From Bacteroidetes bacterium HGW-Bacteroidetes-1 (GTDB taxonomy: Bacteria; Bacteroidota; Bacteroidia; Bacteroidales; F082): 64,000 nucleotides of DNA. Location of the stretch: NCBI GenBank assembly GCA_002842755.1, contig PHDU01000005.1, forward strand, positions 1 through 64,000. The letters are read 5' to 3'. The position numbers and the translations under genes were made by a program. The notes beneath the pieces were generated by a model. That model ran no database searches and was not told the DNA's origin. It saw nothing but the letters and a program-made list of their open reading frames with translations. Positions 10,574 through 43,910 of this stretch are shown here, in pieces (position 1 is the stretch's first letter; each line of letters begins with the position of its first letter).

Positions 10574-10631
10574 AAAATGGGTAGGTGAGGCACTACCCGC
10601 GAAATACTCTCACATTAACTGCACAATACAA

Positions 10632-10789: not shown

Positions 10790-11156
10790 TGGAAGTGACG
10801 GGAATTGAACCCGTGTCCGAACAGATTTACATTCATCCATCTACATCGTTATCTTTTTTGTTATCTTTTGGAACACAGGATAAAAAGCTAAAGTTCCAAT
10901 GTTTCCAGCAACCACAGTAGGCACTCATGTAGGGTCACAGTGATAATCTCCCCTAGCCACTAGCTGCTTTTATGTTACACCTAGCCTGAATCGTCGCAGC
11001 AACTATTCAGGTAGATGGTTGTAGCGGCTTACGCGGCTACAGCGTTGTATGATTCTTCGTTGGCGTTTAAAGCCTGACCGACTTTTAACGTAGCCTCTCG
11101 GTCAACTACGCGATGCAAGATGAGTTTCAACTGCCCGTCGAAACCATTTCACCCCC
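10790..11156 (-). ncRNA. ssrA: transfer-messenger RNA (tmRNA)
   Basis: 5' GGGGGTGAAATGGTTTCGACGGG, 3' CGGACACGGGTTCAATTCCCGTCACTTCC-A; acceptor GGGGGTG/CACTTCC; internal tag frame GCC AAC GAA GAA TCA TAC AAC GCT GTA GCC GCG TAA (11029..11064). Confidence 0.95.
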
Positions 11157-11301
11157 AGAATTACACATTTGTCTATCAAATTTGTTAAAAAGTGAGAGAC
11201 AATTGTGTTTGTCCTTCATATATGATTGTCGTTTCAATCCACGTACCAAATTATTGATACGACATTTCATCAATGTTATTGTCAAAGATCAAAAGAATCG
11301 G

Positions 11302-11374
11302 TTGCTAGGGCAGGATTCGAACCTACGTAATGATGGTTTATGATACCATTGTCTTACCACTTGACGACCTAGCA
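11302..11374 (-). tRNA. tRNA with CAU anticodon (Met or Ile2)
   Basis: TGCTAGG/CCTAGCA, loop ATCATAA, GTAGGTTCGAATCCTGC. Confidence 0.9.
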
Positions 11375-12424: not shown

Positions 12425-12454
12425 ATTATATCATTGCTTAACAAACTTTGTCAA
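12425..12454 (-). promoter_or_regulatory. sigma70-like promoter TTGACA-N18-TATAAT
   Basis: Both hexamers perfect on minus strand, about 23-nt leader to ORF at 12395. Confidence 0.85.
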
Positions 12455-18101: not shown

Positions 18102-21100
18102 TCAATTCCATAAAAAGCTTCGACCGGCTTTAGCAGAACCCGATGAATTGCCCTTGACATAATATTCATTCCATTTCAATGTCGGATAGGCAACGACCAA
18201 CAGCCTTTCAAACGCCGGGAATATCTTGTTATTCCAATAGTAAGATTCATTGTATTTACCAGTGAATGCATAGAGTGGCCTTGGTAGCGGCTTCTGTCTT
18301 GTGTCAAAGCTTTCAATGAAGTATTGAACCTTGTCACCAACCCAGAAGTCTTTACCATCTTTAAGCATCTGAGCAGCTACTTTTGTGTGCATCATCGGTT
18401 TATCATATTGATCAATAGGCTTTGTAACCTTCTGAGCAAACATCAGTTCATCCAATGGAAGCTTGCTGGAAAATACTTTGGTTTGTTTATCAAGAATCCA
18501 TGCCCGGATATCAATTGGTGATGGTGGTTCATCTGACAGAATCCATTCAAGAATTTCTTTCTGGTATTTCTTAACGAAACCACATTGATCTGTTCTGACA
18601 TATTCAAAACCAGTGATCTTCAGTTTACAAGGATTAACTTCATGACCATCAAGGTAGTCGAGATAACCAGCGTAACGCTTTTTGGCATTAACGATTAAGA
18701 ATGTTCTGAATCCTTTATCATAGGACATTTCCAGTGTACAAACATCTGCATTAAATTCTTCTTTGGCAATTTTATCGCACAACTTCTGAATCTTACCCAA
18801 GAGGTCTATGACATCATCTACCGATTTGATCTTGTCTACAAACAATGAATCTGTATTGTGTAATAGAATTGAACCCATTGCATCAACAAAGTTGTGATTA
18901 TCGGCTACCGACAAATCATAAAGATAATCATCATAATCAATTGGTTTGCAAATATTTTCTATCAAGTGCTTACCATATCCTTCATTGATCAGATTCTTAA
19001 CGGTATAGGTCTTTTTATTAAAGTTACTCTGACAAACAACCACCATACCAACCTGTTTCATGAGAGTAGACAATCCAGAAATCAACTTAATTGAAGCTGA
19101 TTCGAAATCATAGTTCGTGCCGCTTTTTATTTCTGTAATTGAACCATCACCAATCATTAGCTGTTGGATGAAATGTTTCTTTTGCTCCAACGACAATCTA
19201 TAAACAAAGTTTGGTATTCTTTTTTGGTCATATTTTTGTCCACAAAGTTGTCTAAATACAATAGCCTGTAAACAAGTCATCATCTGTAGTTTATTATTAC
19301 CATCAGATTGACACAATAATCCATTTTCTGCATTTTTGAATAGCCAGTCTGTTGTTTGTTTTAATTGATTTAACAACCAGAAATCTCTTGACGCAATTGA
19401 TGTACCTTTACGACTTTGTGTTGTTTCCGGGGTCGATGATGAACCATTACATATATAGTGCGCCAACAAACTTAAAAAGCCATTGAACATCGGGTCATTA
19501 ACATTGAGATGCCGCAACATTGTTGTCTTTTTGACTTGATTGTGTGATAAGAAAATCTTTTCACTATCTGCGGTTAAATAGACATCCCCACCACGCTTTC
19601 TTGTGTAAGAATATGGTTCCATATAATCTAATAGGTCGATTGTCGTGATTGGTTGTATGTCTGGTAATTGAGTTAAACTGAATGCATTAAAGCCGTCTGT
19701 TGGCTTAAAACATTGCCCCTCTGAATTTATCAATGAATGATCTTTTGATACTTCAGTAACGCCATGTCGGTATCTATAGTGGTAGACTTCTTTTTTAACT
19801 TTATGTCTTATGACACAATCAACCGACTTCCATTCGGAATCATGTGTTTGAAAGTTGTATGAGAGTGCTGTTACATTTTCATCAAAACTTCCATATTCTT
19901 TTCCATCCTTGATATATCGCTTGGTTGTTTTATTGAACAATTCTTCAAAGGATACAACGGAAACATCATCATTTGTTTTAATAATCGTACATCTGTCTTT
20001 AGTTACACTATCACCGTAAATTATAATGTATCCTTCATCCTCTAGGAACTTAGCACCAGCTTTATTAAAATACTGACCACCAAGAGTTACAGATTCAGCA
20101 ACCCTTGTATCATAAAATCTTGTATGTGACTCGCCTAGTGCTCCGTAAAATGAAAGACCAAATGATTTGTAAACATATTGAAGGTTATCATATGTTTTAT
20201 GCATCAGAGAACCGGGAGATTCTTTACTCATTAGGTCTTTGTAGAAATCTCTCTTCTCTTTCATTCTGGTAATAACTTTTGGAAGGATGCCAATAAAATC
20301 TTTCCTGAATCTATGACCACTTGGGGTTTTGATACACATTTCATCAGGAACGCTATCATCTGTAACAAGAGTATCAGGTGAAATATTCAGTGTTTTGATG
20401 ACGTTTGGGTAAAGTGATGAATAGTCAAATACTTTAACATTCTTGTATCTTCCGGGCTTTGGTGGGAATACATAAGCCCCTTCAAATTTATCATCATCTT
20501 CGTCATCGTCTTGTATCAACTGACCATTTTCATCGTATTCCCTGATGATCGTTTTAAAGTGATAATGTTTATCTTCCTGTGCCTGTTTAACGATGAGATT
20601 GTCAACTTTTCGAGTGATAAACAAGTCATCACAAGGACACATACCGATAGCATTTACGTTTCTTGCAACAGCTAGATACTTTGTTTTCATTTCAAGTTCA
20701 TATTGCCGTCTTACGTCAACTCTATTGTATTTCTCAAGAAGTTCTGGGTGGTTAAGCCACATCTCATAAACACCAATACCTTCATGTTGAACCTTACCTT
20801 CGCCGAGGTATTCTTGTGAAACATTTTCAAGAGAGTATGAACGCAATGATACAGACTTCTGAAATACCTTCATCTGATCCTGATGAAATATTTTACGCCA
20901 ATCGAGTTGTATTCCATATCTCATCATCCTCGATTTCACGTATGGTAAGTCAAAGGATATCCCGTTCCATGAGATGATTACATCATATGAGTTAAAGATT
21001 TTACCAATCTTAATAAGTAATTCTTTCTCTTCTTCATCTGTATCTTCAGCAATTTTCAAAAATGCTTCTTTACCATCAACCAAATCCTTGAAAGCAACCG

Positions 21101-21596
21101 ATAAAATGCGGAATTCTCCGGGGATTGGCTGACCGTTCTTAATGCGATCATCAGTTTCAATATCGAAGAATAAACATTTGTAATCCTGTTCAAACTCTAC
21201 GTTATCCTGCAAGGCAAATCGTTTGTGTGGTGGTATATCAGCTTCAAATGTTTCACATTCAAGCATCTTCAGCTTTTCAAGCATGTCATTGAATGCGAAT
21301 GTCTTGTAACCCCAATCTCTTTCCATTTCCTTGTTTAAGGACTCTGTTTTGTGTGGGTAATCAGCATAAATCTTAACGTATTTACCATCAGGTTCAACCG
21401 AGTTGATGACGTTGTTGCTTGTGAACTGGTTAAACTTGCTTCTTAACCGTTCATAATCTTCGGCTAAGACGTAGAAAAACCAAGCAAACTTTGTTTCACC
21501 GATTCCCTTTTTACCTGTCTCTGGATTCCTGTAGACGTAGGCTATTTTATTTAAGCCTCTATCCCATGCTCTCATTATCTTGAACTTTTCGGCCAT
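18102..21596 (-). CDS. family B DNA polymerase with intein
   Basis: FFDIETDD exo motif, DYSSLYPNV motif A, YGD|intein|TDS motif C. Confidence 0.95.
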   Translation of the reverse strand: MAEKFKIMRAWDRGLNKIAYVYRNPETGKKGIGETKFAWFFYVLAEDYERLRSKFNQFTSNNVINSVEPDGKYVKIYADYPHKTESLNKEMERDWGYKTFAFNDMLEKLKMLECETFEADIPPHKRFALQDNVEFEQDYKCLFFDIETDDRIKNGQPIPGEFRILSVAFKDLVDGKEAFLKIAEDTDEEEKELLIKIGKIFNSYDVIISWNGISFDLPYVKSRMMRYGIQLDWRKIFHQDQMKVFQKSVSLRSYSLENVSQEYLGEGKVQHEGIGVYEMWLNHPELLEKYNRVDVRRQYELEMKTKYLAVARNVNAIGMCPCDDLFITRKVDNLIVKQAQEDKHYHFKTIIREYDENGQLIQDDDEDDDKFEGAYVFPPKPGRYKNVKVFDYSSLYPNVIKTLNISPDTLVTDDSVPDEMCIKTPSGHRFRKDFIGILPKVITRMKEKRDFYKDLMSKESPGSLMHKTYDNLQYVYKSFGLSFYGALGESHTRFYDTRVAESVTLGGQYFNKAGAKFLEDEGYIIIYGDSVTKDRCTIIKTNDDVSVVSFEELFNKTTKRYIKDGKEYGSFDENVTALSYNFQTHDSEWKSVDCVIRHKVKKEVYHYRYRHGVTEVSKDHSLINSEGQCFKPTDGFNAFSLTQLPDIQPITTIDLLDYMEPYSYTRKRGGDVYLTADSEKIFLSHNQVKKTTMLRHLNVNDPMFNGFLSLLAHYICNGSSSTPETTQSRKGTSIASRDFWLLNQLKQTTDWLFKNAENGLLCQSDGNNKLQMMTCLQAIVFRQLCGQKYDQKRIPNFVYRLSLEQKKHFIQQLMIGDGSITEIKSGTNYDFESASIKLISGLSTLMKQVGMVVVCQSNFNKKTYTVKNLINEGYGKHLIENICKPIDYDDYLYDLSVADNHNFVDAMGSILLHNTDSLFVDKIKSVDDVIDLLGKIQKLCDKIAKEEFNADVCTLEMSYDKGFRTFLIVNAKKRYAGYLDYLDGHEVNPCKLKITGFEYVRTDQCGFVKKYQKEILEWILSDEPPSPIDIRAWILDKQTKVFSSKLPLDELMFAQKVTKPIDQYDKPMMHTKVAAQMLKDGKDFWVGDKVQYFIESFDTRQKPLPRPLYAFTGKYNESYYWNNKIFPAFERLLVVAYPTLKWNEYYVKGNSSGSAKAGRSFLWN
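18855..20009 (-). mobile_element. intein of about 385 aa in polymerase motif C (YGD/TDS) with LAGLIDADG-like motifs
   Basis: Begins SVTKDRCTIIKTNDD, ends DNHNFVDAMGSILLHN followed by Thr; LLAHYICNGS and LMIGDGSI. Confidence 0.92.
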
Positions 21597-26070: not shown

Positions 26071-26847
26071 TTACCTCACTTTTAGTTCATTATAACGTGT
26101 TAAAATGCGATTTTTTGCTATTGAAAAATAGTTATCATCTTTTTCAATACCAATAAAATTCCTACCACTATTTAAACAAGCTATTCCTGTAGTACCAGAA
26201 CCCATAGTAAAATCCAAAACGATTTCACCTTCGTTGGTGTAAGTTTTAATCAGGTATTCCATCAGGGCAACCGGCTTTTGGGTTGGGTGGAGTCCTCGTT
26301 CTCTATTGTCAGAATTACCAATTCTTAATATATTCGTTGGATAGTTTTCAAATTCGATAATCCTTTCTAGTTTATGCGAGTCCCTTTTGAGTCCGTGTCC
26401 GTTCTCATAATTTCGTGGTCTTGACCATTTTTTATCTACTTTAATAATTCCTTGCGGATTGTATCTCATTCTTTTTTCACCTAACTGTATATTGTGTCCT
26501 ATTGGTGCTTCGCTAAATACAATCAGACTTTCTGTGAACTTTATAGGCATATTTTTAGCGTGAGTGAAATTACATCCTTTTGACTTCTCCCACACCCACT
26601 CATACTTAAACATCTTTGGGTTGCTCATCACAAGTGCTGAAGTAAAAGGCTGCGAACCAAAAAGCACAATCGCCCCATTAGGCTTAATAATGCGCTTCAA
26701 CTGTTCCCACATCGGTTCAAATGGAATAATAGAATCCCACTTACAAGATGTCGTTCCATATGGTATGTCAGCAATAATCGCATCGACTGAATGATCTGGG
26801 ATTTCCTTCATTCTTACAAGGCAATCACCTTTCATCAACTTAATCAT
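26071..26847 (-). CDS. DNA methyltransferase (paralog 1)
   Basis: ADIPYGTTSCKWDS; DFTMGSGTTGIACLNSGRNFIGIEKDDNYF. Confidence 0.9.
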   Translation of the reverse strand: MIKLMKGDCLVRMKEIPDHSVDAIIADIPYGTTSCKWDSIIPFEPMWEQLKRIIKPNGAIVLFGSQPFTSALVMSNPKMFKYEWVWEKSKGCNFTHAKNMPIKFTESLIVFSEAPIGHNIQLGEKRMRYNPQGIIKVDKKWSRPRNYENGHGLKRDSHKLERIIEFENYPTNILRIGNSDNRERGLHPTQKPVALMEYLIKTYTNEGEIVLDFTMGSGTTGIACLNSGRNFIGIEKDDNYFSIAKNRILTRYNELKVR

Positions 26848-28173: not shown

Positions 28174-28491
28174 TCAACCACCGCGCTCGATTGCGTCACG
28201 TCTCATGAGTTCTTCATACATAATCAGAACCGCCGATTTTCCATGTAATTCCGAAAGTGTTACAATGTCTTTTATCTGTATATTACCAGTTTGTAATATA
28301 TTTCCATTAACATCTTTCAGTGTCATTGAAACCGTGTTGACAACACCACGTTTGACAGGCTCTTTGACGTAAAACACCGTCGTCTTATCTTTGTGTTTAC
28401 AATCTTGACATATTGAATCACCATTGAGTCGTCTTTCACTTGCAATATTTTCACTTCCACATTTAGGACATTTTGGATTAGACATGTTCAC
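28174..28491 (-). CDS. zinc-ribbon protein
   Basis: CPKCGSENIASERRLNGDSICQDC. Confidence 0.6.
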   Translation of the reverse strand: MNMSNPKCPKCGSENIASERRLNGDSICQDCKHKDKTTVFYVKEPVKRGVVNTVSMTLKDVNGNILQTGNIQIKDIVTLSELHGKSAVLIMYEELMRRDAIERGG

Positions 28492-30317
28492 ACTTCCTTT
28501 TCAAATTGTTTCAAAATATTAGCTTCCATTTCAGCAACGATATCACCAAGATTGTCATCGCTGGAATCATCACCCAAACTTTCAATTACCTTATCAATAA
28601 GGTCTTTCTTTGTTTCCCATTGTTTATGAATGATTTCTTCAACCGTTCCTACTGTAATAAACCGATAAAGATGAACATCATGATCTTGGCCGCTTCTATA
28701 AGCTCTACCAGCTCGTTGCATTGTAATTGCTGGTTTAATAGGTATATCCCATTCTATTACAATTCTTGCAGATTGTATGTTCTGACCATAGTTGATTTTA
28801 TCAGTTGTTACAAGAGCTTTAATGTCTGGTGTATTATTAAACTCCTGAACGACTTTCAAAGCATCTTTACCATCACCTCCCATACATGTAATGTATTTGA
28901 ATCCAAGCTGCTTTAACTTCCTTGCTATAGCAGCTACACCGCACTTAAAGAATGTAAAGATAATAACTTTATCACTGGTCTGACCAATAATATCTTCCAG
29001 TAATTCAAACTTCGGATTCTCATCCCACCCACCACGACTTGTATCGCAAAGAAATTGTCTGGCGTTTACATATCTTGCACTACCAACAAATTGCTTTTTA
29101 TACTCGATGTAACTCTGATGAAATCTGGCAGACGGTTCCACAAATACATCATGCCTGTATAACTTAACCGGCAAATCAAGTTTCTTCTTGATGATGTAAG
29201 GCGCAATCAGGTTCTTAACGTATTGGTGGTTTTTAAAGCCAACAGCAACGATTTCTGTCTTGAAGAAAACCTGCTTAGACCCTTTCATTCGAAATGGTGT
29301 CTGGCGTTCTTCATATTCTACAAAGTTTGTTTCAAAAAACTTGTGACCACCAAGAATCTTCCCATCATCAAGCAGCTTAAACACTGGGTAAATATCAAAC
29401 AATTTATTCTCAATTGGTGTTCCTGACATTGGATAACGGTAACGAGGTTTCCAACAATCCTGAACCAACTGGAAAAAGTTGATACTTCGTTGAGCTGAAA
29501 TAAAGTTCTTCATCTTGTGAAATTCATCTACAACGATCATATCAAAGCTTAAATTCTTCAGATGATGAACATCAAAATTACATTTTTCATAGTTTGTAAT
29601 AAGTGTCTTGTATTGAGAAACACCTTTAAACATTTGATACATAGCTTCGCGTTTCTTTGGTGGTTCTGTTGTAATTTTAAACATTTCGCCATCACCAAAG
29701 AATTTACCATAGTCAGAGTAAAAGTTTTCTACAAGTGATGCTGGTAACATGATAAGTGTCTTTTTCACACCACCATATTTTTTGAGGTATTTATCGACTG
29801 TTAAAGCAACAAGCGTTTTACCTGTTCCAATGTCATTGCCGATAATAATACGTTCACCAATTATGCTGTAAACGATTGTTTCGACTTGGTTCCCATAATA
29901 TTGAAAGTCTTTTCTGTAAAGTCTGAAGAAACGTTCTTTAATGTGTAATTCGCATTCAAGAATAAAGTTAAGAATCTGCTTTACATCTTCATCAGCCGCA
30001 GAGTATTTACGTTCCTTTAATTCAACCAATCGTTTGCGATGGTTTGTATAATCGTCATATTTCTCTTTTAAACCATCGGTGAACTTGATTGGATATTTAA
30101 TTTCTTTAAGCCGGTTAATCAACACAGGCAAGGCAATAAACGGTACTTCATATTTGCTGTTACGAAAACGAGCACAAAGAGCATAAGAACATTTATCCTG
30201 AACGGTTAAAAACTGTTCGTTCGTTTCTTCGCTAATAGTTATTTGATGATTTTTCTCGTTATAACCTAATTGCACACTGATTTCTCGGTTTTCAAAAGAT
30301 TTCGTTAAGCATAGCAT
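28488..30317 (-). CDS. SNF2/DEAD-box type helicase
   Basis: IGNDIGTGKTLVALTV, MIVVDEFHKMKN, SGTPIENK, QRAGRAYRSGQ. Confidence 0.9.
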   Translation of the reverse strand: MLCLTKSFENREISVQLGYNEKNHQITISEETNEQFLTVQDKCSYALCARFRNSKYEVPFIALPVLINRLKEIKYPIKFTDGLKEKYDDYTNHRKRLVELKERKYSAADEDVKQILNFILECELHIKERFFRLYRKDFQYYGNQVETIVYSIIGERIIIGNDIGTGKTLVALTVDKYLKKYGGVKKTLIMLPASLVENFYSDYGKFFGDGEMFKITTEPPKKREAMYQMFKGVSQYKTLITNYEKCNFDVHHLKNLSFDMIVVDEFHKMKNFISAQRSINFFQLVQDCWKPRYRYPMSGTPIENKLFDIYPVFKLLDDGKILGGHKFFETNFVEYEERQTPFRMKGSKQVFFKTEIVAVGFKNHQYVKNLIAPYIIKKKLDLPVKLYRHDVFVEPSARFHQSYIEYKKQFVGSARYVNARQFLCDTSRGGWDENPKFELLEDIIGQTSDKVIIFTFFKCGVAAIARKLKQLGFKYITCMGGDGKDALKVVQEFNNTPDIKALVTTDKINYGQNIQSARIVIEWDIPIKPAITMQRAGRAYRSGQDHDVHLYRFITVGTVEEIIHKQWETKKDLIDKVIESLGDDSSDDNLGDIVAEMEANILKQFEKEV

Positions 30318-30361: not shown

Positions 30362-30391
30362 TTGACGAAAAGCTTTAGCCTATGATATTAT
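30362..30391 (+). promoter_or_regulatory. sigma70-like promoter TTGACG-N18-TATTAT
   Basis: Hexamers and spacing read directly; lies at the strand switch. Confidence 0.7.
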
Positions 30392-30397
30392 CATTTT

Positions 30398-31215
30398 GCG
30401 GTCGTAAGATCGAGGTGAGCATCTCTAGCGATAAGTGTAAATTTATCGTGATGCATGATAAAACCGAAGGGAAAACTGACCTTCTCTGTCCTACTTGTGT
30501 TCCCGTCTTAATCAAACGGATTCAACACGGTACTGACGGGCCTCGAAACTGCTTTCTAAACAGTAACAGGTTAATAAATGCTCTTGTTGGACACCAATCG
30601 GTATAAGACAAACAGCTATATTAACAGCCAACAGCTTGCAGGGATGTGAGTATAAGGGTTGAAATTATATCCTTGGTTGGTAAGCGAGATTTAATTGACG
30701 GGCAGCTTAACAGCTTAACTTGATTTCATCGGACTCTGAAGTCACTAGATTGTAAGTCGAGAAGATTCTTAAAGGCACCTGCCATATCTGTTATGATTTG
30801 GTCGTGGTGTGGTGATGAATAATTGCCGCACCCATCAAATGTAAACACAGTTAGATATGGTAGGAAACTGATTTGTCGTACCCGATAGTTAAAAGTGGTC
30901 ATAAAACAAATCAGTTAAAAGCTTATATAAGATTCTTATGTATAATTGGCATGGCATTTATATAATGCGTAGTTACAGTGTTATACATATAGAAATTTAT
31001 GTATTGCTTGTCATTAACCAGAAATGGTGTTGAGAATACAGGTTCATTTGGAAGAAATTCTAAAAAAGAAGGAACCTACGGAGGATGATTTCCTCTGCTA
31101 AAAATTGACGAAGTCAAGTTTTTAGTTAAATACCAGTAATTACAGGAAATTACCAATATTACACAGAATACTGTTTTAATTGTGGATTACTAGATTTTTT
31201 ACTGGTTTATTAAAA
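30398..31215 (+). ncRNA. candidate large structured non-coding RNA (or very long structured leader)
   Basis: No credible ORF; many complementary arm pairs, several nested (CCTGCCATATCT/AGATATGGTAGG, GGTGTGG/CCGCACC, AACTGATTTGT/ACAAATCAGTT, TATGTATAA/TTATACATA, CTAAAAATTGAC/GTCAAGTTTTTAG). Confidence 0.5.
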
Positions 31216-31226
31216 AGGATAAATAA

Positions 31227-31454
31227 ATGCTTAATTATATATTAATTACTATTGGTTATTTAACAATTGGCTTTGTTGTTGCGGTAGTTACTTTAATTTA
31301 TGATCATAGTGATGACATAGATCGAGACAATTTTATAAAATTGTCTATCTTTTTATGGCCGATTGTTTTGTTAATCTTGTCGTGGTTGTCTGTATCATCA
31401 TTCATATGTGAGAAAACGATAAAATTGGTTAATTATTTGAAAAAGCGATTATGA
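31227..31454 (+). CDS. small membrane protein
   Basis: Two hydrophobic segments; AAAAAGGATAAATAAATG initiation region. Confidence 0.65.
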   Translation: MLNYILITIGYLTIGFVVAVVTLIYDHSDDIDRDNFIKLSIFLWPIVLLILSWLSVSSFICEKTIKLVNYLKKRL

Positions 31455-31717
31455 TACAATTACCGCCATTTAAACATATCTTTCCAATTAATAGAACAAG
31501 GATATTCCCAAGTTGGGGAAATTCTTATGTAGACAATTGGGTAAGATTTGAAACATTTATTGGTGGTGTTGATGTCAATGATAGTTGTGTTATGTATTTT
31601 GGAACGCCGAGCCAACCGGATAGACCTGACATTTGGGAACGATTTGCTAACTGTCAGGCTCCTAGAATGGTGGATGTTTGTGTTGCTTCTTTTCCACATC
31701 CGGGCAGAACACCTTAA
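31451..31717 (+). CDS. hypothetical protein
   Basis: 88 aa; overlaps previous stop (ATGATAC). Confidence 0.5.
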   Translation: MIQLPPFKHIFPINRTRIFPSWGNSYVDNWVRFETFIGGVDVNDSCVMYFGTPSQPDRPDIWERFANCQAPRMVDVCVASFPHPGRTP

Positions 31718-31727
31718 ATAAATTTTC

Positions 31728-31756
31728 TTGACAAAGTTTAAATGATGTGCTATTCT
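31728..31756 (+). promoter_or_regulatory. sigma70-like promoter TTGACA-N17-TATTCT
   Basis: Directly upstream of ORF 31792. Confidence 0.75.
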
Positions 31757-31791
31757 ATAATAGACGTTTAAATCCATAGGAGTTTATCAAA

Positions 31792-32328
31792 ATGAAAATA
31801 ACCGAAATTCAACCGTTCAAAACAATTGCTGGTACACTTGAAAAACAAAAACAATTAATAGATTTGTTTGTTAAAAAAGGTGGTTTATGTTTAACACCAT
31901 CCAATGATATTAATTATGGGTCATTATTTTGTATTCATAGATCAATAAAGAATGACCGGATGTTAATATCTAATTATGCTAATTTGGTCGATTTTGAAAA
32001 TTGTGATTTACCATATATGTCTTTTAAAGGAACAATTGAGCTTTTTGAATCTTTGGAAGATCACCAAACAGGTAAATTTGTAGAATTCGATATTGATTCA
32101 GATGGTAGATACCAGATACCAAATACAGCAATTCTTTCGTGGCAGGATTATATGACTTATGAACATGGCAATAAAAGAATATTTGGTGGGTGGTTGTGGT
32201 CACATAATGGTAAAGAATTCTGGCGTGGTCGTTGTGGACTCAATGGGTCTGGTAAAATCGTAAATGATTGCGATAAATGGGTAAAACCATTAGTTCCCAA
32301 GAAAATACGCTTCTGGGTAGAGGAATAA
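31792..32328 (+). CDS. hypothetical protein
   Basis: 178 aa; TAGGAG upstream. Confidence 0.65.
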   Translation: MKITEIQPFKTIAGTLEKQKQLIDLFVKKGGLCLTPSNDINYGSLFCIHRSIKNDRMLISNYANLVDFENCDLPYMSFKGTIELFESLEDHQTGKFVEFDIDSDGRYQIPNTAILSWQDYMTYEHGNKRIFGGWLWSHNGKEFWRGRCGLNGSGKIVNDCDKWVKPLVPKKIRFWVEE

Positions 32329-32334
32329 CAACAA

Positions 32335-32694
32335 ATGATTACAAACATCATTATTAACATAATCATTTCTGGTGTTATCTCATTCATCATCGGTTATATC
32401 ATTGGTCGAGTGACTTACAAGCCAACAAGAACATTCATATCTATTGATGAAGCAAACCAGAGAATTGGTAAATATGGCACTCTGTTTGACAATCAAAAGA
32501 AACGAATTGAAGCTAAAGATTCACCATTTTCACCAGAAACAACACAGTCTATAGAAAATACCCGGAAAATGGGTGAGAAATTAATTAACAGGTTAAATCG
32601 CGACCAAGAACCTAAATTAGAAATCATTGATGTTCGCGATATAGGCAAAGAAGAGGCTGACAACATAATTAAAAGGTTAAATAACCATGAATAA
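32335..32694 (+). CDS. hypothetical membrane-anchored protein
   Basis: N-terminal TM, hydrophilic C-terminus. Confidence 0.6.
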   Translation: MITNIIINIIISGVISFIIGYIIGRVTYKPTRTFISIDEANQRIGKYGTLFDNQKKRIEAKDSPFSPETTQSIENTRKMGEKLINRLNRDQEPKLEIIDVRDIGKEEADNIIKRLNNHE

Positions 32695-32923
32695 ATTGTT
32701 AAAAAGACGTTTCCACAAACACCCAATGTATTTGATCCTATGGGAATTCTATGTATCAGAACACACCATCAGGCAGACTGTTAGTAGATCGTTGAAAATG
32801 CGATTAAAGAATATCACAGATGTTTATCTTAAAAAGTTGTGTCATCAAAATTCTTTTTACGATGTATATGGTCACAAGGTTCAATATGAACCAACCGATA
32901 TTTCTATACAAAAATTAGATTAA
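32687..32923 (+). CDS. hypothetical protein
   Basis: 78 aa ORF. Confidence 0.55.
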   Translation: MNKLLKRRFHKHPMYLILWEFYVSEHTIRQTVSRSLKMRLKNITDVYLKKLCHQNSFYDVYGHKVQYEPTDISIQKLD

Positions 32924-32935
32924 AGGAAATAATCA

Positions 32936-33379
32936 ATGATTATAATTAAAAAAAGTATAACAGCAGATAGTAGAACTTGTGATTGTAAGAACATTCCAAT
33001 TGATGTTCTTGAACGTTCAACATACCAACACAAAGATGATGTTGAAAAAGCAATGGTATTTTTTCAAAGGCTGATGAGGATTGAAGGTTGGAGTCATGAT
33101 GACCACAAGCTTCGCACAATGAAGGAATTTCACAAGGCTTTCCAAGGTGGGTTTGTTGATGAAACATGGTGGAATGAACACAAGAAGGAACTACATCATT
33201 TACCACCGGATGCAGATATAAATATGGTTCATGTATTTGCATTCATATGTGATTGTGTAATGGCTGGTCTTGGCAGAACTGGTAAAATAAGACCTATCAC
33301 AATTGACAGTGAAGTTCTACAGAAAGCCTTTCGAAACACTGTTAATCTTTTGGTTAGCAATGTAAAAGTTGAGGAATAA
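32936..33379 (+). CDS. hypothetical protein (His/Asp-rich possible metal site)
   Basis: WSHDDHK...WWNEHKKELHHLPPDADINMVHVFAFICD. Confidence 0.6.
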   Translation: MIIIKKSITADSRTCDCKNIPIDVLERSTYQHKDDVEKAMVFFQRLMRIEGWSHDDHKLRTMKEFHKAFQGGFVDETWWNEHKKELHHLPPDADINMVHVFAFICDCVMAGLGRTGKIRPITIDSEVLQKAFRNTVNLLVSNVKVEE

Positions 33380-33656
33380 AATCATGACAGATGAAGAATT
33401 GATGAACTTAACCGCCACGAAAGCCAGAGAGATACAATTAATCGAACAAAATGATAAAACCGATAAACAATTAATTGCTATCTTGAAACAAGTTAGAGAA
33501 ACAATTTCCAAAACAGATAAGGATCATTTGTGGTGGTATGATGTTTTGGAAGCCAGAACAATTGAGAGATTACGGTTGATGAAATATGTTGTTGTAAATG
33601 CATCCAATCAACATGACGGAACCGGCTACAAAATTTCATGGGGAGAACATGATTAA
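33369..33656 (+). CDS. hypothetical protein
   Basis: 95 aa ORF. Confidence 0.55.
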   Translation: MRNKIMTDEELMNLTATKAREIQLIEQNDKTDKQLIAILKQVRETISKTDKDHLWWYDVLEARTIERLRLMKYVVVNASNQHDGTGYKISWGEHD

Positions 33657-33883
33657 TGTCAGAAATTAATGCAATATCAATGAGAGCTATTGTAGCTTCA
33701 AGAGTTGATCAACAAGAGCTGAACGTGATATTAAACGAAATTCGCACAGCGGCAATGGCTGGATTGGTAAATATCAAAACAAATTGTAGTTCTCCCGGCA
33801 TCCACAGGGAACTTATCAATCGTGGTTTCGTTATTGAAGATATTTCATCAACAGCATCTAAGTGGTATAAAATTCATTGGTAA
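33656..33883 (+). CDS. hypothetical protein
   Basis: 75 aa ORF. Confidence 0.5.
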   Translation: MSEINAISMRAIVASRVDQQELNVILNEIRTAAMAGLVNIKTNCSSPGIHRELINRGFVIEDISSTASKWYKIHW

Positions 33884-33893
33884 AGGATAACAT

Positions 33894-34091
33894 ATGTCAC
33901 GTTATGCAGGAAAGATCAAGGTTATCTGTGCTAACAATATGTGTTTTCCTGTTAATACAAATCTGGAACCTTGTGGGTGTGAATGTTATGACCCCTACCC
34001 AAGATTACCAGATGATGCAATCGAACATATAAGTTATTACGATTATTTACAAAGAAAATTTGGAGTTGAAATAAATGTCCAGCGTAGGTAG
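33894..34091 (+). CDS. hypothetical protein
   Basis: 65 aa ORF; AAAGGATAA upstream. Confidence 0.5.
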   Translation: MSRYAGKIKVICANNMCFPVNTNLEPCGCECYDPYPRLPDDAIEHISYYDYLQRKFGVEINVQRR

Positions 34092-34308
34092 AAATCAAAC
34101 AGTTGGTTATACAAAGAGACAGTCTGGCACAAACATGGACTTTTCAAGGCGATCACTTGAAGCTATGGAAATCCCAGAACTTGAAGAAATGTTGGAATAC
34201 CTGAAAACCAATGGTAATCGTTCTTCAAGAAAGCTTGTAGAGAAGATATTGAATTCCAAACTTAATGAAAATAATTTAACATTTAAACTCAGGTTAGAAA
34301 AGGATTAA
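34075..34308 (+). CDS. hypothetical protein
   Basis: 77 aa ORF. Confidence 0.5.
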   Translation: MSSVGRNQTVGYTKRQSGTNMDFSRRSLEAMEIPELEEMLEYLKTNGNRSSRKLVEKILNSKLNENNLTFKLRLEKD

Positions 34309-34312
34309 ACGA

Positions 34313-34408
34313 ATGTTGGAAAAAGGAATTCTGTTAACAATTGTTGTCATTTTATTATCTGTGGTTATTACATCGACTCCACCGGTAACAGCAGAGAAAC
34401 CACCATAA
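34313..34408 (+). CDS. 31-aa single-TM peptide
   Basis: Manual translation MLEKGILLTIVVILLSVVITSTPPVTAEKPP. Confidence 0.4.
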   Translation: MLEKGILLTIVVILLSVVITSTPPVTAEKPP

Positions 34409-34429
34409 GTTGTAAAACCTACAAACAGA

Positions 34430-34558
34430 ATGAGTCTGATAGAATCCAATGATCTTGATAACAAAACATCACTATTCCTCATCGCTTTGGATAACAAAGA
34501 ATATCTTGTTTGTTCTAGTTGGGATGGTGGAATTACAATTGTTGAGGTAACTAAATGA
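34430..34558 (+). CDS. hypothetical microprotein
   Basis: Manual translation MSLIESNDLDNKTSLFLIALDNKEYLVCSSWDGGITIVEVTK; ATGA overlap with next. Confidence 0.45.
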   Translation: MSLIESNDLDNKTSLFLIALDNKEYLVCSSWDGGITIVEVTK

Positions 34559-34719
34559 AAATAGAAATAAATCAATCCAACTTACAAATGCAATTATGGA
34601 TTATCATCGCTGGTTATTTATCATGGATTACACACCATTCATTTGGTTTGTGTGTTTTTCATGGATTGTTAAATGTGTTTTACATTCTTTATTGGCTTTG
34701 GAATAACTCTATTACATAA
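34555..34719 (+). CDS. small membrane protein
   Basis: Manual translation MKIEINQSNLQMQLWIIIAGYLSWITHHSFGLCVFHGLLNVFYILYWLWNNSIT. Confidence 0.5.
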   Translation: MKIEINQSNLQMQLWIIIAGYLSWITHHSFGLCVFHGLLNVFYILYWLWNNSIT

Positions 34720-34731
34720 AAGGATAAACAA

Positions 34732-35244
34732 ATGGAAACCAAAACAGCATTTTCTGTAGATTTGTTGGAATTTGAACGTGGGTGGGGTAGCAAGGTAGAC
34801 GACACAATCATCTTCTTGGATGCCAACAAAGCTTATAAATACGTTGAAGAATTTAATGCCAAGAACAATGCAGACAAAGTTCCTGACTGGTATATGACGG
34901 CAGAAAAGCCAGTTGATATCAAGCTGGCGACAGAATCTTATGATATCATTGACAAAACTGTTGAAAAATACATGAGTGAACGGGAACTACGCGATCAGTT
35001 AATGGCTAAAAACAAGCCAGAAGACACGAAACCAAGACCATTAACATGTGCTGGTTGTCTACAAGAATTGAAACCACCACTTAAAGGATTGCCTGATTGG
35101 TATGCTTTTAAACTATCCTATACCAACATAGCAAACCCACTCACTGATAATGAAGCGTGTATACAACTCATTCCATTATTCACAGGTGATAAATATTTCT
35201 GTAATAAGAAGTGTTTAATTGAATGGTTAAATAAACTAAAATAA
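34732..35244 (+). CDS. hypothetical protein with Cys motifs
   Basis: CAGCL...FCNKKCLIEWL. Confidence 0.6.
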   Translation: METKTAFSVDLLEFERGWGSKVDDTIIFLDANKAYKYVEEFNAKNNADKVPDWYMTAEKPVDIKLATESYDIIDKTVEKYMSERELRDQLMAKNKPEDTKPRPLTCAGCLQELKPPLKGLPDWYAFKLSYTNIANPLTDNEACIQLIPLFTGDKYFCNKKCLIEWLNKLK

Positions 35245-35256
35245 AGGAACTGAACC

Positions 35257-36705
35257 ATGCTTTCTAAATTAAAAACATTTGCTCAAGACATTAACAAAGA
35301 ACTTGATGGTATACTCTATCTAGTGGGTGGTTCTGTTCGCGATATGATTATGAACATAGCACCAAAGGATTACGATCTTGAACTGTTTAGAGTCTGGCCG
35401 AAAGACTTTGTTAAATACCTCGATAAAAAGAAAATCCCATTTAAGTTTAACAGCGATGCAAAATTCCCTGTTTACCGTGTCTGTATTGTGAATAACCTTC
35501 TTGACGATGAAGAATGGGTTGAAGTTGGTTTCCCTCGTGTAGACAACAAGACAGGCCCGAAACATTCAGACTTTGAATGTCTTGTAGACCCATTTATGTC
35601 GGTTATTGATGCCGCGATGAGAAGGGATTTCACAATCAATGCTGTTTATTACAACCTTTTAAAAGATGATTACGAGAATCATGGCTTTGTTAGCCATATA
35701 ACACACAGTAGGGAATTATCCCCTGTTCACATGGAGAAGTTTAAGGAAGACCCACTTCGTATTATGCGCGGGTTCCAATTTGCTTCTCGTTTTGGGCTAT
35801 ATACGGCTGATACTCTTGAAACCGTTGATGTAGATATGATCAATGGATTATCACATGTAGACCCAAGCGGCATCTACGCTGAATTTGTTAAGGGAATTAC
35901 AAAGGCAAAGAACATCACAAATGCTCTTGAATACCTTTGTTCAATAGCATTACGAAATAACGGTTCTGAATTCTTTAAACCTATTACAGAAATGTTTTAT
36001 TGCTTACAGAACGCCAGACACCATTTCGAAGGTAATGTTTGGGAACACACAAAACTCGTTATCAAGAATGCTATTGAACTGGCAGATACCGATGATGAAA
36101 AGGTTCTCCTGTTCTTCGCTGCTTTCTTCCATGACATAGGCAAGATACCAACATTTAAACTTGATACCGCCGGGAATCCAACTGCTCATGGTCACGATGT
36201 AGAAGGTGATGATCTGGTTGAACTTTATGGTAGTCGTTTCGGATTACCAAAGAAGATGATTAAACAGATTATCGTTTTGAAACACTGCCACATGATTGGT
36301 AATGATGCCAAGAATAAGAAGCTTTATTTAATGGCAGAAGAATTAGAGAAAGTCGGCCTGAATTTCGATATCCTTTGTAAGCTGATGCTTGCTGATGTTT
36401 ATGGGTCTGTTAAGGAATATTTCAGAAGCACTGTTAGAAGTCATGGCGAAATCTACAATTTCATGGCGAAAATTAAATCTCTTGGAATTGAGCTTAAACC
36501 ATTGCGAATGTTTGTCAGTGGGGATGATATTCTTTACCACAGTAACGGTAAAATCAAAGGTAAGAAACTTGGTGATCTGCTTTATGAAATGAAGATGTTG
36601 CAGATTAACAATCGTGTTGCAACACGACAGGAAGCATTTGATTTTATGAAAAAACGCATCGAAAATATTTTGGAGAAAATAGTTGACAAAGAAACGCCTG
36701 AATGA
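35257..36705 (+). CDS. cca: tRNA nucleotidyltransferase (CCA-adding enzyme)
   Basis: LYLVGGSVRDMIMNIAPKDYDLELF, RRDFTINAVYYN, DPLRIMRGFQFASRFG, FFHDIGK. Confidence 0.92.
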   Translation: MLSKLKTFAQDINKELDGILYLVGGSVRDMIMNIAPKDYDLELFRVWPKDFVKYLDKKKIPFKFNSDAKFPVYRVCIVNNLLDDEEWVEVGFPRVDNKTGPKHSDFECLVDPFMSVIDAAMRRDFTINAVYYNLLKDDYENHGFVSHITHSRELSPVHMEKFKEDPLRIMRGFQFASRFGLYTADTLETVDVDMINGLSHVDPSGIYAEFVKGITKAKNITNALEYLCSIALRNNGSEFFKPITEMFYCLQNARHHFEGNVWEHTKLVIKNAIELADTDDEKVLLFFAAFFHDIGKIPTFKLDTAGNPTAHGHDVEGDDLVELYGSRFGLPKKMIKQIIVLKHCHMIGNDAKNKKLYLMAEELEKVGLNFDILCKLMLADVYGSVKEYFRSTVRSHGEIYNFMAKIKSLGIELKPLRMFVSGDDILYHSNGKIKGKKLGDLLYEMKMLQINNRVATRQEAFDFMKKRIENILEKIVDKETPE

Positions 36706-36851: not shown

Positions 36852-36881
36852 TTGACAAACCTTATTAAACGATGATATAAT
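36852..36881 (+). promoter_or_regulatory. perfect sigma70 promoter TTGACA-N18-TATAAT
   Basis: Predicted +1 coincides with ATG at 36888. Confidence 0.88.
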
Positions 36882-36887
36882 CAATAT

Positions 36888-37262
36888 ATGAAGAAAGATA
36901 AATTAGATGGAATTCCTTTGCTTATCGACCCTGAAGAATTTTTTAAACATGCTTTAATTCTCAGGGAACTTGACCAAGTTGGTTATTTGAATGTTGAGAT
37001 AACCGATAAGGAATGTTTGGAAAAGCTGAAGATTCCAGAAGCTCTTTACAAATTTGCTTCTGAAACAAATACACCAGTTGGAGAAATGATTAATGTTATT
37101 TTAAGAGATTGGTGTATTAGAATGTTTGAAGGTGAATCTAAATACAGGAAAGGGCTTTTGTTCAAAATAGTTAAATGTCCGTCTAGTGTATTGACTGATG
37201 AACAGAAGAATAAATTGATTGTATTTTTACACAAGGATATACCAGAGTTGCAGAAACGATAG
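36888..37262 (+). CDS. hypothetical protein
   Basis: 124 aa ORF directly after -10 box. Confidence 0.6.
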   Translation: MKKDKLDGIPLLIDPEEFFKHALILRELDQVGYLNVEITDKECLEKLKIPEALYKFASETNTPVGEMINVILRDWCIRMFEGESKYRKGLLFKIVKCPSSVLTDEQKNKLIVFLHKDIPELQKR

Positions 37263-37688: not shown

Positions 37689-38810
37689 ATGAATAAAACA
37701 TTTAAATATAGAATTTACCCAACAAAGTCACAAGTTAAAAAACTGAATGACAACATTCGGGCTTGTCGATTTGTTTGGAATACCTTTCTTAATGAAAGGA
37801 AAGTTCTGTATGAAACGGAAAAGAAGCAAATCTCTTGCTTTGATCAAACAGCAAAACTAACTGAGCTGAAAAAAGAATTCCCATTTTTAAAAAATGCGTA
37901 TTCACAGTCATTACAACAAATTGTTATCAAATTAGATTTGTCCTTTAAGTCATTTTTTAGACGCATCCAAAACGGAGAAACACCGGGGTATCCGAGATTT
38001 AAAGGATGTTATCGACTAAGTTCTATATATTTCACCCAATTTGGTAAGGGTTGTAAAATAGCTAATGGAAAGTTAGCCGTTTCTAAAATTGGTGATATAA
38101 AACTAGTTTATCATCGCGAATTAATAGGAACTCCAAAAACAGCAACGATTAAACGTACACCAACTGGTAAATGGTTTGTATCTATCTGTTGTGAAACTGA
38201 TAATACCATATTGCAAACAAACGACTTATCTGTTGGTATTGATTTGGGTATTAGCAAGTTTGCTACTTTTTCTGACGGAACAGTTATTGAAAATCCGAGA
38301 TTCTTCAAAGAAGAAGAAATCAAAATCAAGAAAGCTCAGAGTAAAACAGACAAACTTGTTAAAGGTTCTAAAGAACGATTTAAAGCTAGAAAGGTTGTTA
38401 ATCGTATTTATGAACGTTTAAGCTGGAAGCGAGACAATTTTTCTCATCAAGAGAGTAGGAAGGTGATAAATAAATATCAAAATATCATTCTTGAAAAGTT
38501 GGAGATATATAAATTGATACACAATGGATACCCAAACTTAAACAAATGTATAACAGATGTAGCATGGAATAAATTTACAAGTTTGGTACAATACAAAGCG
38601 GTAGAAGCTGGTAGAACTGTCATTCTTGTAAATCCTAAAAATACCACAAAAACTTGTAGTCAATGTGGTAAGATTGTTGATAAATCTCTAAGTGAACGAG
38701 TACATAATTGCTCTTGTGGACTTGTATTAGATAGAGATTTAAACGCAGCTATTAACATTTTAAGATTGGGAACACAATCTTTACAAAGACTCTGCCTCTC
38801 GGCAGAGTAA
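37689..38810 (+). mobile_element. tnpB: IS200/IS605-type TnpB RNA-guided nuclease, no TnpA in the window
   Basis: KTFKYRIYPTKSQ; VGIDLGISKFA (RuvC D), IILEKLEIYKL (E), CSQCG...CSCGLVLDRDLNAAINIL; 3' hairpin ACTCTGCC TCTC GGCAGAGT. Confidence 0.93.
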
Positions 38811-38829: not shown

Positions 38830-40377
38830 ATGACAACGGATGTAATTACCTCACTGACCGATCTCGATGATTTAGACCTCGATCTTGAAACCGATGGAGT
38901 CAGTGAAATCACAGATGCAACAACGCTTGATTCTGTGGCCTCAAAAACCGATTCTGATGATGACCTGACCTTAGATGACCTTGAGGAAGACACGGTGCAG
39001 CCAGCGGCCTCTAATTCGCAGGAAACAGATGAATTGAAACTTGACGATGAAACCAGTTCAATTGATGATTTGACACTGGAAGATAACATCGTTGACCCAC
39101 CGGTTGATACCGCGAAGCCAGAACTCAACAAACCGGTTTTGAATCTTGATGAAGAAATCGAACTTGACCTTGATGTAAACGAAGGTATCACAAAGAAGAC
39201 CGAAGTAACCATAAATGGGAAAACGCCGGGAGAATTTGTTAAAGATGCTTTCGATGCGGCGGTAACACCACCGGTTGAAGAAAAGAAGAAGCGTGGTAGA
39301 AAGCCAAAAGAAGTTAAGCCAGAAGTTGTTACATCGGCTCCTGTCGATACTTCAAAATTCATTGATCCTAATTTCCCACTGGCTGTCCTCAATGTTGATA
39401 AATACGCCACTCGTTCAACTATTCGTTCTGATGAAGAAGTTACTGAACTGGCCGAAAAGATTAAGTTGCAAGGCCAAGCCGAACCTATTCATGTTTACAT
39501 CGCCGATGATGGCGTTGCTTACCTTCTTGCTGGTCTTGGTAGAAAGATGGCAATTCAGGATAAACTCGGCAGAGAAACCGCTGAAGCTATCGTACATAAA
39601 GGCTTAACAGAAGCCGATATCTACAAGATTTGCACAGGAACTAATGAACCAAGAACCAAGTTAACCGAATGGGATAAGATTGTTTCCATTGGTAAATACA
39701 CAGACGCACATCCCGGTGTTTCTATTGATGATGAGAATGATACAAACTCAGTTGTTCGTGTATTTGGTTATTCAAGAAGTGCGGTTTATCAGTATTTAAA
39801 GGCTTGGAATGTGTTGAAAAACAGTTCTGAATTCATTGAATACTTTAACAGAAACGGCCAGAAAATCGCTGGCTACACTTATCAGATTCTTGCCAATACC
39901 ATCACAGCACTTGCCGAACACAAATTGTCTGCCGCTGAATGGATAGTCATTTTCAATGAGATTTATGCTATTTCCACCAGACAATCATTTGCAACAATGT
40001 TGATTGATGCCGCGAATACATATCTTGTTATGAAGAAACCGGCATCAGTACTTGCTACAGAGGTTGATGATGGTTTAAGTAAAACTGATGAAAAAATCAT
40101 CGACAGGGCTGTTAAAGAGACAAAAGAAAATGATACCGTTGAAGATATCGACAATACAATGGTTGATAAACTTGAACAGGAAATCGCGGTTGAACAGGAC
40201 TCCAAAGAAGTCATTGACGGCTGTTATCAAAGTGTGTTATTAACATTAACACAGGCACGTTCAGGCATTGAAAGTTTGATCGCTATTGAGAAATATCAGG
40301 AACTTAAAACCCCTGCTGAAATCAAGAAAATCAAAGAAATGATAATGATGGTTGCCGAATCTGCTAAAAAACTTTGA
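38830..40377 (+). CDS. ParB/Srx-domain-like DNA-binding protein with acidic N-terminus
   Basis: LAVLNVDKYATRSTIRSDEEVTELAEKIKLQGQAEPIHVYIADDGVAYLLAGLGRKMA; HTH-like GYSRSAVYQYLKAW. Confidence 0.75.
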   Translation: MTTDVITSLTDLDDLDLDLETDGVSEITDATTLDSVASKTDSDDDLTLDDLEEDTVQPAASNSQETDELKLDDETSSIDDLTLEDNIVDPPVDTAKPELNKPVLNLDEEIELDLDVNEGITKKTEVTINGKTPGEFVKDAFDAAVTPPVEEKKKRGRKPKEVKPEVVTSAPVDTSKFIDPNFPLAVLNVDKYATRSTIRSDEEVTELAEKIKLQGQAEPIHVYIADDGVAYLLAGLGRKMAIQDKLGRETAEAIVHKGLTEADIYKICTGTNEPRTKLTEWDKIVSIGKYTDAHPGVSIDDENDTNSVVRVFGYSRSAVYQYLKAWNVLKNSSEFIEYFNRNGQKIAGYTYQILANTITALAEHKLSAAEWIVIFNEIYAISTRQSFATMLIDAANTYLVMKKPASVLATEVDDGLSKTDEKIIDRAVKETKENDTVEDIDNTMVDKLEQEIAVEQDSKEVIDGCYQSVLLTLTQARSGIESLIAIEKYQELKTPAEIKKIKEMIMMVAESAKKL

Positions 40378-40960: not shown

Positions 40961-41251
40961 ATGTGGTACCCAACAGGCGCAACAACAGAAGCGACTAATT
41001 ATGTTGGTAATTCGACTTGGGTTGGTGTTGTCCGAATTGATCCAGTGCCAGAATCGCCCCCAGATTGGCGAAATATAAAGAAGATAGATAAAGAGGCCAA
41101 GCGGATTAAAACGATTGAAGGTATCAAGACTTCAAAAAGATTACATTCGAAAACACCAGTGTTTAAAGTGTTTGATAGACGATTTTCTAAACCATACAAG
41201 AGGGAACCAAGAATGACACAACAATTTGCCATGAGACAGGTGATTCTATGA
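40961..41251 (+). CDS. hypothetical protein
   Basis: 96 aa ORF; AAAGGAAT upstream. Confidence 0.5.
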   Translation: MWYPTGATTEATNYVGNSTWVGVVRIDPVPESPPDWRNIKKIDKEAKRIKTIEGIKTSKRLHSKTPVFKVFDRRFSKPYKREPRMTQQFAMRQVIL

Positions 41252-41940
41252 TTAAGTTGATGAAAGGTGATTGCCTTGTAAGAATGAAAGAGATTCCAGA
41301 TAAAAGTGTTGATTGCGTGATAGCAGATCCACCATATATTATGACAAAACGTGGCAAAAGTTGTAGCCCAAACTGGATGCCTGATAATATGGGCGAAAAT
41401 GTTTTTGATGGTGATATCCCGAATTTTTACGATTGGCTTTTTTTGTGTTATCAAAAATTAAAAAACGATTCACATATTTATATATTCACAAATACCGTTT
41501 CATTACAAAGAATTTTGAATGATGCTACCGCCATTGGTTTTAAGTTACATAACATAATAACAATGATAAAAGATACAAACATGCCAAATCGGTGGTATTT
41601 AAAGTGTTGTGAATTAGTTTTATTTATGAGAAAGGGATTGGCATATCCGATCAATGATATGACTTCAAAAGATTGGTTACATGTTGTAATGCCAAAACAA
41701 AAAGATGGAAAGTTACATGTAACACAAAAGCCAGTTAAGCCTGTTAGAATGTTTGTACATAATTCAACACCATTGAATGGTATAATCCTTGACCCATTCA
41801 TGGGTTCTGGTACTACAGGTATAGCTTGTTTAAATACTGGTAGGAATTTTATTGGTATTGAAAAAGATGATAACTATTTCTCAATAGCAAAAAATCGTAT
41901 TTTAACACGTTATAATGAACTTCAAAGAGGCATTAAATGA
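41248..41940 (+). CDS. DNA methyltransferase (paralog 2)
   Basis: IADPPYIM; DPFMGSGTTGIACLNTGRNFIGIEKDDNYF. Confidence 0.9.
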   Translation: MIKLMKGDCLVRMKEIPDKSVDCVIADPPYIMTKRGKSCSPNWMPDNMGENVFDGDIPNFYDWLFLCYQKLKNDSHIYIFTNTVSLQRILNDATAIGFKLHNIITMIKDTNMPNRWYLKCCELVLFMRKGLAYPINDMTSKDWLHVVMPKQKDGKLHVTQKPVKPVRMFVHNSTPLNGIILDPFMGSGTTGIACLNTGRNFIGIEKDDNYFSIAKNRILTRYNELQRGIK

Positions 41941-42935: not shown

Positions 42936-43910
42936 ACTATTAAAAGGCGATTGTCTTGTAAGAATGAAAGAAATCCCAGATAATTCAATTGATTTAATTT
43001 TAACAGACCCACCCTATGGTTAGTTAGCACAACTGCATGTAAATGGGATTCTATTATTCCACTGGAACCAATGTGGGAGCAGTTGAAGCGCATTATTAAA
43101 CCGAACGGGGCGATTGTTATGACAGCTTCACAGCCGTTTACAAGTGCGCTGATAATGAGTAATGCAAAGATGTTTAAATATGAGTGGGTATGGGAGAAAA
43201 GCACCGTTACTGGATTCCAAAGAAGCAATTATCAACCACTAAAAAATACTGAAAATATTTGCGTATTTTACCCAACTGAGTTTATAAATGACATGCGAAG
43301 CGGGTCAAAAGAAGGAGAAATCAAGGGGAAGATGAAAAAAGCGTTTCGCGGTTCTGGATTAACAACAAAAGAACTCAATGCCTTGTGTGGTTTTGAAGCA
43401 TCTGGGTATTTGAGAACATCGTCGAGTTGGTCGAACGTATTGCCGAACGGGGAAAAGCGTTTGATTTTAGAAAATGTTTTGAAGATTAAAATAGAAGAAA
43501 TTACAGAAAAAAAAGAAATTACATTTAACCCACAAGGAATAGTTCTATGCAACAAAAAAAATAAAAGAGGGAGGGTCGGCGAGAATTGGGCAGAGATGAA
43601 GTCAAATGAATATAACCAAGAGTTTACAAATTACCCAAGACATTTATTATATTTCAAAAGTGAAACTGGTCTACACCCAACTCAAAAACCCGTAGTCCTG
43701 ATGGAATACCTGATTAAAACTTACACCAACGAAGGCGAGATTGTGCTAGATTTCACAATGGGTTCTGGTACTACAGGAATAGCTTGTTTAAATACAAAAA
43801 GAAATTTCATCGGTATTGAAAAAGATGATAAATATTTCTCAATAGCGAAAGATCGGATAACAAAACATTACAATGAACTGAAAAAGAAATCTTTGTTTTT
43901 AAAAGCGTAA
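42928..43910 (+). pseudogene. DNA methyltransferase (paralog 3), disrupted by TAGTTAGC insertion at 43021-43028
   Basis: MIKLLKGDCLVRMKEIPDNSIDLILTDPPYG* then frame shift; removing 8 nt restores [26 protein letters not shown]. Confidence 0.85.

Follow-up and report, generated by a model that had tools for sequence, protein, structure and literature searches.

The window, as we call the whole 64,000-nt stretch of DNA that was analysed, almost certainly carries a member of a new family of phage-encoded structured non-coding RNAs, about 420-730 nt long, untranslated, with a sigma70-type promoter of its own and, as judged from sequence comparison, under strong selection for the fold. The large structured phage RNA behind its own promoter that the earlier note had proposed was supported: it has homologs with compensatory changes, it is under purifying selection, and its synteny is conserved. 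The locus lacks a conserved ORF and has a significant fold, compensatory evolution and its own promoter, as expected of this kind of RNA. We infer that it is transcribed, where the transcript ends, and any role in replication; the statement as a whole, a new family together with a mechanism linked to a replication origin, is put forward tentatively. The features of the locus are listed in Table 1.

The source is a tailed phage, a 110-kb contig within a 4.2-Mb MAG, of which 64 kb make up the window. Its genes include those for a family B DNA polymerase, DnaB helicase, clamp loader, gp32-like SSB and ATP-dependent ligase, and tail genes. The IMG/VR contig IMGVR_UViG_3300038335_000014 (120 kb) is identical to it across the RNA region. 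Phage contigs are easily assigned to the wrong bin, which leaves the hosts uncertain; two relatives described below, L118 and L119, are filed under Candidatus Methylomirabilis and Bacteroidota, respectively.

Other features of this phage were recorded. The minus strand at 9040-11374 contains eight tRNA genes together with a tmRNA gene that is complete (tag ANEESYNAVAA); phage-encoded tmRNAs are uncommon. The gene for DNA polymerase B (18102-21596, minus) has an intein-like insertion with a LAGLIDADG domain (weak, about residues 548-914), compared with shorter polymerases of 777-787 aa in the relatives L030 and L118. Three DNA methyltransferase paralogs, at 26071-26847 (minus), 41248-41940 (plus) and 43071-43910 (plus), share blocks of up to 97% nucleotide identity, which points to gene conversion or a recent duplication inside the phage. 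The phage also carries an OrfB/TnpB-type transposase gene (phrog_506; 37689-38810, plus) and a ParB-like gene (38830-40377), and L041 has a ParB-like gene too. A palindrome at 7095-7126, TTGACAATAT...ATATTGTCAA, is promoter-like on both strands and lies within one of the window's most AT-rich stretches.

Table 1. Predicted features of the RNA locus and its flanks, in window coordinates.
Feature	Position	Strand	Evidence or remark
SNF2-type helicase gene	28488-30317	-	Divergent from the RNA; its conserved neighbour
Sigma70-type promoter TTGACG-N18-TATTAT, TGA before the -10	30362-30391	+	Same place in L119 and L041/L042/L118
Large structured ncRNA gene, ~730 nt	30398-31126	+	Fold z, L119 homolog, compensatory pairs; both ends inferred
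Conserved 5' domain: GAAGG/CCUUC hairpin, then long interrupted stem with 9-nt loop CUUAAUCAA	30464-30545	+	Window+L119 model finds L118/L042/L041 at the syntenic place
GCCAAC/GUUGGU stem enclosing two hairpins (30634-30651, 30653-30675)	30627-30681	+	Alifold consensus with L119
Multibranch domain, closing stem UGACGGGC 30696-30703 / GCUUGUCA 31006-31013	30696-31013	+	L119 consensus
Long arm CCUGCCAUAUCUG...UAGAUAUGGUAGG, inner arm 30796-30840	30778-30864	+	Pair probability 0.94-0.98
Hairpin AACUGAUUUGU / ACAAAUCAGUU around conserved GUACCCGAUAGUUA...AGUGGUCAUAAA	30866-30916	+	L119 consensus
Hairpin UAUGUAUAAU / GUUAUACAUA, apical GCAUU/AAUGC	30937-30989	+	L119 consensus
Conserved 3' end GGAACCUA...GGAGG...CUCUGCUAAA and small hairpin	31071-31102	+	All members, order kept
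A-tract/stem/U-tract hairpin	31098-31125	+	Possible weak intrinsic terminator; not called by the consensus terminator scan
AT-rich candidate DNA-unwinding element	31126-31266		Contains the window's least stable 100-bp duplex (31167-31266), directly behind the RNA

Promoter, coding potential and folding of the locus

The promoter that the earlier note had claimed at 30362 is present, and counterparts were found at the same position in L119 (TTGACA-N18-TATGAT) and in L041, L042 and L118 (TTGACA-N17-TATTCT). Sites of the type TTGACA-N17/18-(TGA)TATAAT-like are located ahead of phage genes at 12425-12454 (minus), 30362-30391 (plus), 31728-31756 (plus) and 36852-36881 (plus). This type is unlike the -33/-7 promoters usual in Bacteroidota and bears on the host used by the phage.

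A single plus-strand ORF of at least 60 aa was found at the locus (30382-30606, 74 aa). Its codon score was -0.23 bits per codon, compared with a mean of +0.19 for phage genes and -0.14 for shadow ORFs. This ORF, which has a weak zinc-finger score below the cutoff, was rejected as coding: the codon score is negative and the frame is not kept upstream in L119. The frame of L041 and L118 that matches it, their best ORF frame, shows 11 nonsynonymous changes and 1 synonymous change up to a stop in L118, and therefore no protein is being kept there. These results agree with the earlier view that no credible ORF is present. Neither of the two outcomes named beforehand as speaking against a non-coding RNA, absence of covariation and a protein-coding ORF, was found.

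The plus strand folds to -235 kcal/mol, which is 46 kcal/mol under the mean of 100 dinucleotide shuffles (z -6.0; none of the 100 was as low). The minus strand is 20 kcal/mol under its dinucleotide shuffles (z -2.8). Among 78 sampled 832-nt stretches of the window, the mean fold excess was -12 (sd 11) and one showed a larger deviation. In 200-nt windows on the plus strand, z was below -4 throughout 30701-31100.

All of the complementary arms quoted in the earlier note were found in their places, and two of them are now read differently. The pair CCAGTAA (31133)/TTACTGG (31199) lies outside the conserved RNA, because the transcript probably ends near 31126. The pairing CCCGTC (30502)/GACGGG (30535) is not the conserved one, in which CUGUC (30486-30490) pairs with GACGG (30535-30539) and CCGU (30503-30506) with ACGG (30516-30519). 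Of the extent first proposed, 30398-31215, the locus is real and non-coding, while the 3' end of the transcript is probably near 31126 and not at 31215.

Homologs, compensatory changes and a short form

Searches with single proteins and with DNA matched only the same phage, and the homologs were reached through a helicase alignment with two relatives found through DnaB. L119 is a 1.9-kb contig from a Bacteroidota MAG; its adjacent helicase is 80% identical to that of the window and its RNA is 75% identical over 713 ungapped positions. In the 315 codons that the two helicase genes share, identity is 75% overall, falling to 53% at third positions and to 46% at fourfold-degenerate sites. The RNA is therefore under purifying selection, because its 75% identity compares with 46% at freely drifting fourfold sites.

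The L119 RNA has a fold z of -8.1 on its own. RNAalifold on the two sequences gave 180 pairs; both partners differ in 26 of them and one partner in 23. Because this structure had been chosen with both sequences, which makes the count circular, a retest was run with single-sequence structures. When the centroid structure predicted from the window sequence by itself was mapped onto L119, 19 compensatory pairs were kept, compared with 5.8 (sd 2.1, maximum 13) in a null of 2000 trials in which the 3' letters were dealt out anew. In the reverse test, with the L119 structure mapped onto the window, there were 19 compensatory pairs compared with 6.5.

The clearest covarying stems were 30954-30958/30964-30968, 30937-30946/30980-30989 and 30868-30876/30906-30914. 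The two stems of the hairpin at 30937-30989 contain 8 compensatory pairs, including the change from GCAUU/AAUGC to AUGUA/UACAU, and the hairpin at 30866-30916 has 9 consensus pairs, 3 of them compensatory and 1 with a one-sided change. In the long arm, a compensatory change replaces UUUG/CAAA by UUGG/CCAA in L119. The closing stem of the multibranch domain shows 1 compensatory change and 2 one-sided changes, and no broken pair. In place of the hairpin at 31098-31125, L119 has a different stem of the same form.

L041, L042 and L118 carry a short form of the RNA, about 420 nt from the promoter to the CUGCUAAACAG end, beside the helicase gene. The helicases of L041 and of L042/L118 are 57-60% identical to that of the window; the RNA locus is identical between L042 and L118, and L041 is 84% identical to L118 in the RNA region. 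Relative to the window RNA, the short form has a recognisable 5' domain and 3' end. A covariance model (R1) of the 5' domain, built from the window and L119 only, was searched in 269 kb and matched L118/L042 (17.9 bits, E 0.028) and L041 (13.7 bits, E 0.47) in syntenic position and correct orientation, and nothing else; the E-values fall several-hundred-fold when the search is confined to the intergenic region. Folded singly, L118 and L041 show the stem arrangement of the window, and L118 shares the position of the 9-nt loop, for which the consensus over the family is CUUARYCAA. In the four-sequence alignment of the 5' domain, which had been fitted to the model, two-sided changes occurred in 10 of 24 pairs, compared with 4.6 in shuffles. 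The 3' end common to both subgroups is GGAACCUA...GGAG...CUCUGCUAAA. A local alignment of the whole RNA between the window/L119 and L041/L118 subgroups was not significant alone; the case for kinship across the groups is built on synteny, the promoter, the motif at the 3' end and the model of the 5' domain.

Two further relatives with helicases about 50% identical, G102 (a 30-kb fragment) and G103 (123 kb), gave no RNA copy in the R1 search, so not every related origin requires this RNA. Other repeats are located at their helicase strand switch in place of the RNA. At this strand switch in G102, two copies of an 83-bp repeat rich in TGTCATNNATGACA dyads are found on the upstream side of the helicase (L044, 1504-1666). 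In G103, the helicase block is separated from the genes that follow by an AT-rich intergenic stretch (L028, 8481-9056; fold z -8.4) containing several long inverted repeats, which may be a mobile element or terminators.

Known families and wider searches

The earlier note could not match the RNA to a known family, and the Rfam 15 search of the window and its homologs bore this out. Among 4227 models, including GOLLD, ROOL, OLE and raiA, none was assigned to the RNA of the window, L119, L041, L042 or L118, nor did cmscan of pieces of G102 and G103 give a family. The best weak scores were 11-26 bits, far under the gathering thresholds of the unrelated families concerned, and the only matches of the window were tRNA and tmRNA families located elsewhere than the RNA locus.

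The RNA was compared by blastn with 50,697 phage records and with the genomes of several hundred relatives, and matched only its own sequence. Matches of L041 to Pectobacterium phage PP90 (23 nt, E 0.2) and of 40 nt to G016 were taken as chance. The IMG/VR search with pattern CTTAAAGGCACCTGCC gave three matches, all chance, and that with CCCRTCTTARYCAAAYGG gave only known members and one coding sequence in unrelated phages. Covariance model R2, searched in about 790 genomes, gave a single match, in G1073, which is a false positive within a 385-aa reading frame; a match in L110 (E 0.84) was disregarded. On these sequences the family appears to be new and rare, with four distinct loci found and a long and a short form. 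Few phage RNA classes so large and complex are known, and the short form would be tractable for structure work.

Position at the strand switch and comparison with known systems

The window has a single divergent strand switch, and the RNA is located at it. The GC skew changes sign there, at 30 kb, and the replication genes (PolB, DnaB, clamp loader, gp32-like SSB and ligase), whose block the RNA borders, are on one side. A promoter followed by a candidate AT-rich unwinding element is located at a strand switch, as in an R-loop origin of the T4 type. In T4, oriE, oriF and oriG are found at transcriptional strand switches with composition shifts; oriF consists of a promoter and an AT-rich DUE, with a transcript forming the R-loop primer, and oriE has 12-nt iterons (PMC3016281). 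Behind the RNA, tandem repeats of 11/22 bp in L041 (5309-5456) and 10/11 bp in L118 (1-115; all of these coordinates are approximate) are possibly iterons or a partition site. L119 shows a weaker 22-bp periodicity, and the 3' flank of the window showed no significant periodicity.

An RNA linked to a replication origin, a reading that the earlier note had not considered, was put first, and rated slightly above a free RNA of the GOLLD/ROOL kind, because of the strand switch, the GC skew, the replication genes, the unstable or repeat-bearing flank and the parallels with T4 origins (PMC3016281). RNA polymerase would start at 30398, and the domains of the transcript would fold during synthesis. The G-rich 3' end would enter the AT-rich, easily melted stretch at 31126-31266, which is iteron-like in two relatives, and would form or regulate an RNA-DNA hybrid, priming or opening the origin at the divergent strand switch. 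Such an origin would work like the T4 promoter-plus-DUE origin or like plasmid ColE1 RNA II. However, the switch of coding strand also accounts for the change in GC skew, many phages have AT-rich flanks, and the window's own flank lacks significant periodicity. The possible weak terminator at 31098-31125 would halt transcription short of the AT-rich stretch, R-loop origins in T4 work without a structured transcript, and a consensus scan of 30398-31126 found no minus-strand promoter-like site, such as an antisense RNA I-like promoter. The place of this RNA, of a family absent from Rfam release 15, suggests a concrete role in the start of replication. It is rather doubtful that it represents a phage origin class built on a long conserved folded transcript, a counterpart of ColE1 RNA II; if it did, the RNA architecture itself would control when the T4-like replisome starts.

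A free-standing, trans-acting RNA like GOLLD or ROOL is also a serious possibility. It would be abundant in infection, released at the weak terminator at 31125, and would form a folded or multimeric particle or bind host machinery. Its own promoter, the lack of an ORF, the multibranch architecture and the size fit this reading, as do fast-changing stems with conserved loops and junctions, the variation between subgroups (420 and 730 nt), and the terminator-like stem that is kept in L119 with a different sequence. GOLLD and ROOL, two phage RNAs whose function is unknown, have a comparable size and frequently occur close to tRNA islands (PMC12286853). Likeness to them had been suggested earlier; size and phage context agree with it, but no Rfam model matches and the tRNAs of the window (9.0-11.4 kb) are about 20 kb away from the RNA (30.4 kb). 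A free RNA would also leave unexplained the fixed place at the strand switch by the helicase and the repeats or easily melted DNA behind it.

The earlier note had offered a leader of the gene at 31227 as its alternative. That the RNA is such a structured leader of great length, or an attenuator, for the operon that begins with this 75-aa membrane protein gene is improbable, because the downstream gene differs between the window and L041. The gene is on the same strand and the consensus scan found no strong terminator between the RNA and the 31227 start codon. However, the L041 RNA precedes an ortholog of window 36888-37262 (35% identity, E 5e-18), and genes 31227-36705 are absent there, while the synteny of RNA and helicase is kept in all members. 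Purifying selection throughout 420-730 nt would also be unusual for a leader. A pure DNA element, in which the inverted repeats would function as DNA in an origin or a packaging site and the RNA would be incidental, would fit the strand switch, tandem repeats and AT-rich flank, but is very improbable given a fold excess far larger on one strand, many conserved pairs that are G-U on the plus strand only, and the conserved promoter at the 5' end.

Compared with known systems, the window RNA is like GOLLD in being phage-encoded, untranslated, several hundred nt long (many GOLLD RNAs exceed 800 nt), multibranched and better conserved at one end. In GOLLD the universal part is the 3' half, whereas here the best conservation across groups is in the 5' domain and the short 3' end; the GOLLD covariance model gave no match, and the window RNA is away from the tRNA array. 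ROOL is similar in size (659 nt in one example), in phage or prophage origin and in its complex fold, but its model gave no match at gathering or E<=10, and the window RNA is not near tRNAs. ROOL is a homo-oligomeric nanocage with kissing-loop multimers.

T4 oriF and oriE share with the window locus a promoter at a strand switch, an AT-rich element or iterons behind it, and T4-like replication genes; unlike the window RNA, the T4 transcripts are not conserved structured RNAs, and the window origin is a candidate. ColE1 RNA II is a structured transcript of about 550 nt with a G-rich 3' part directly ahead of the origin. It has no sequence relation to the window RNA, and belongs to a plasmid and not a phage, and no RNA I-like antisense promoter was found inside the window RNA; it resembles the window RNA in being a structured transcript whose G-rich 3' part is located just before the presumed origin.
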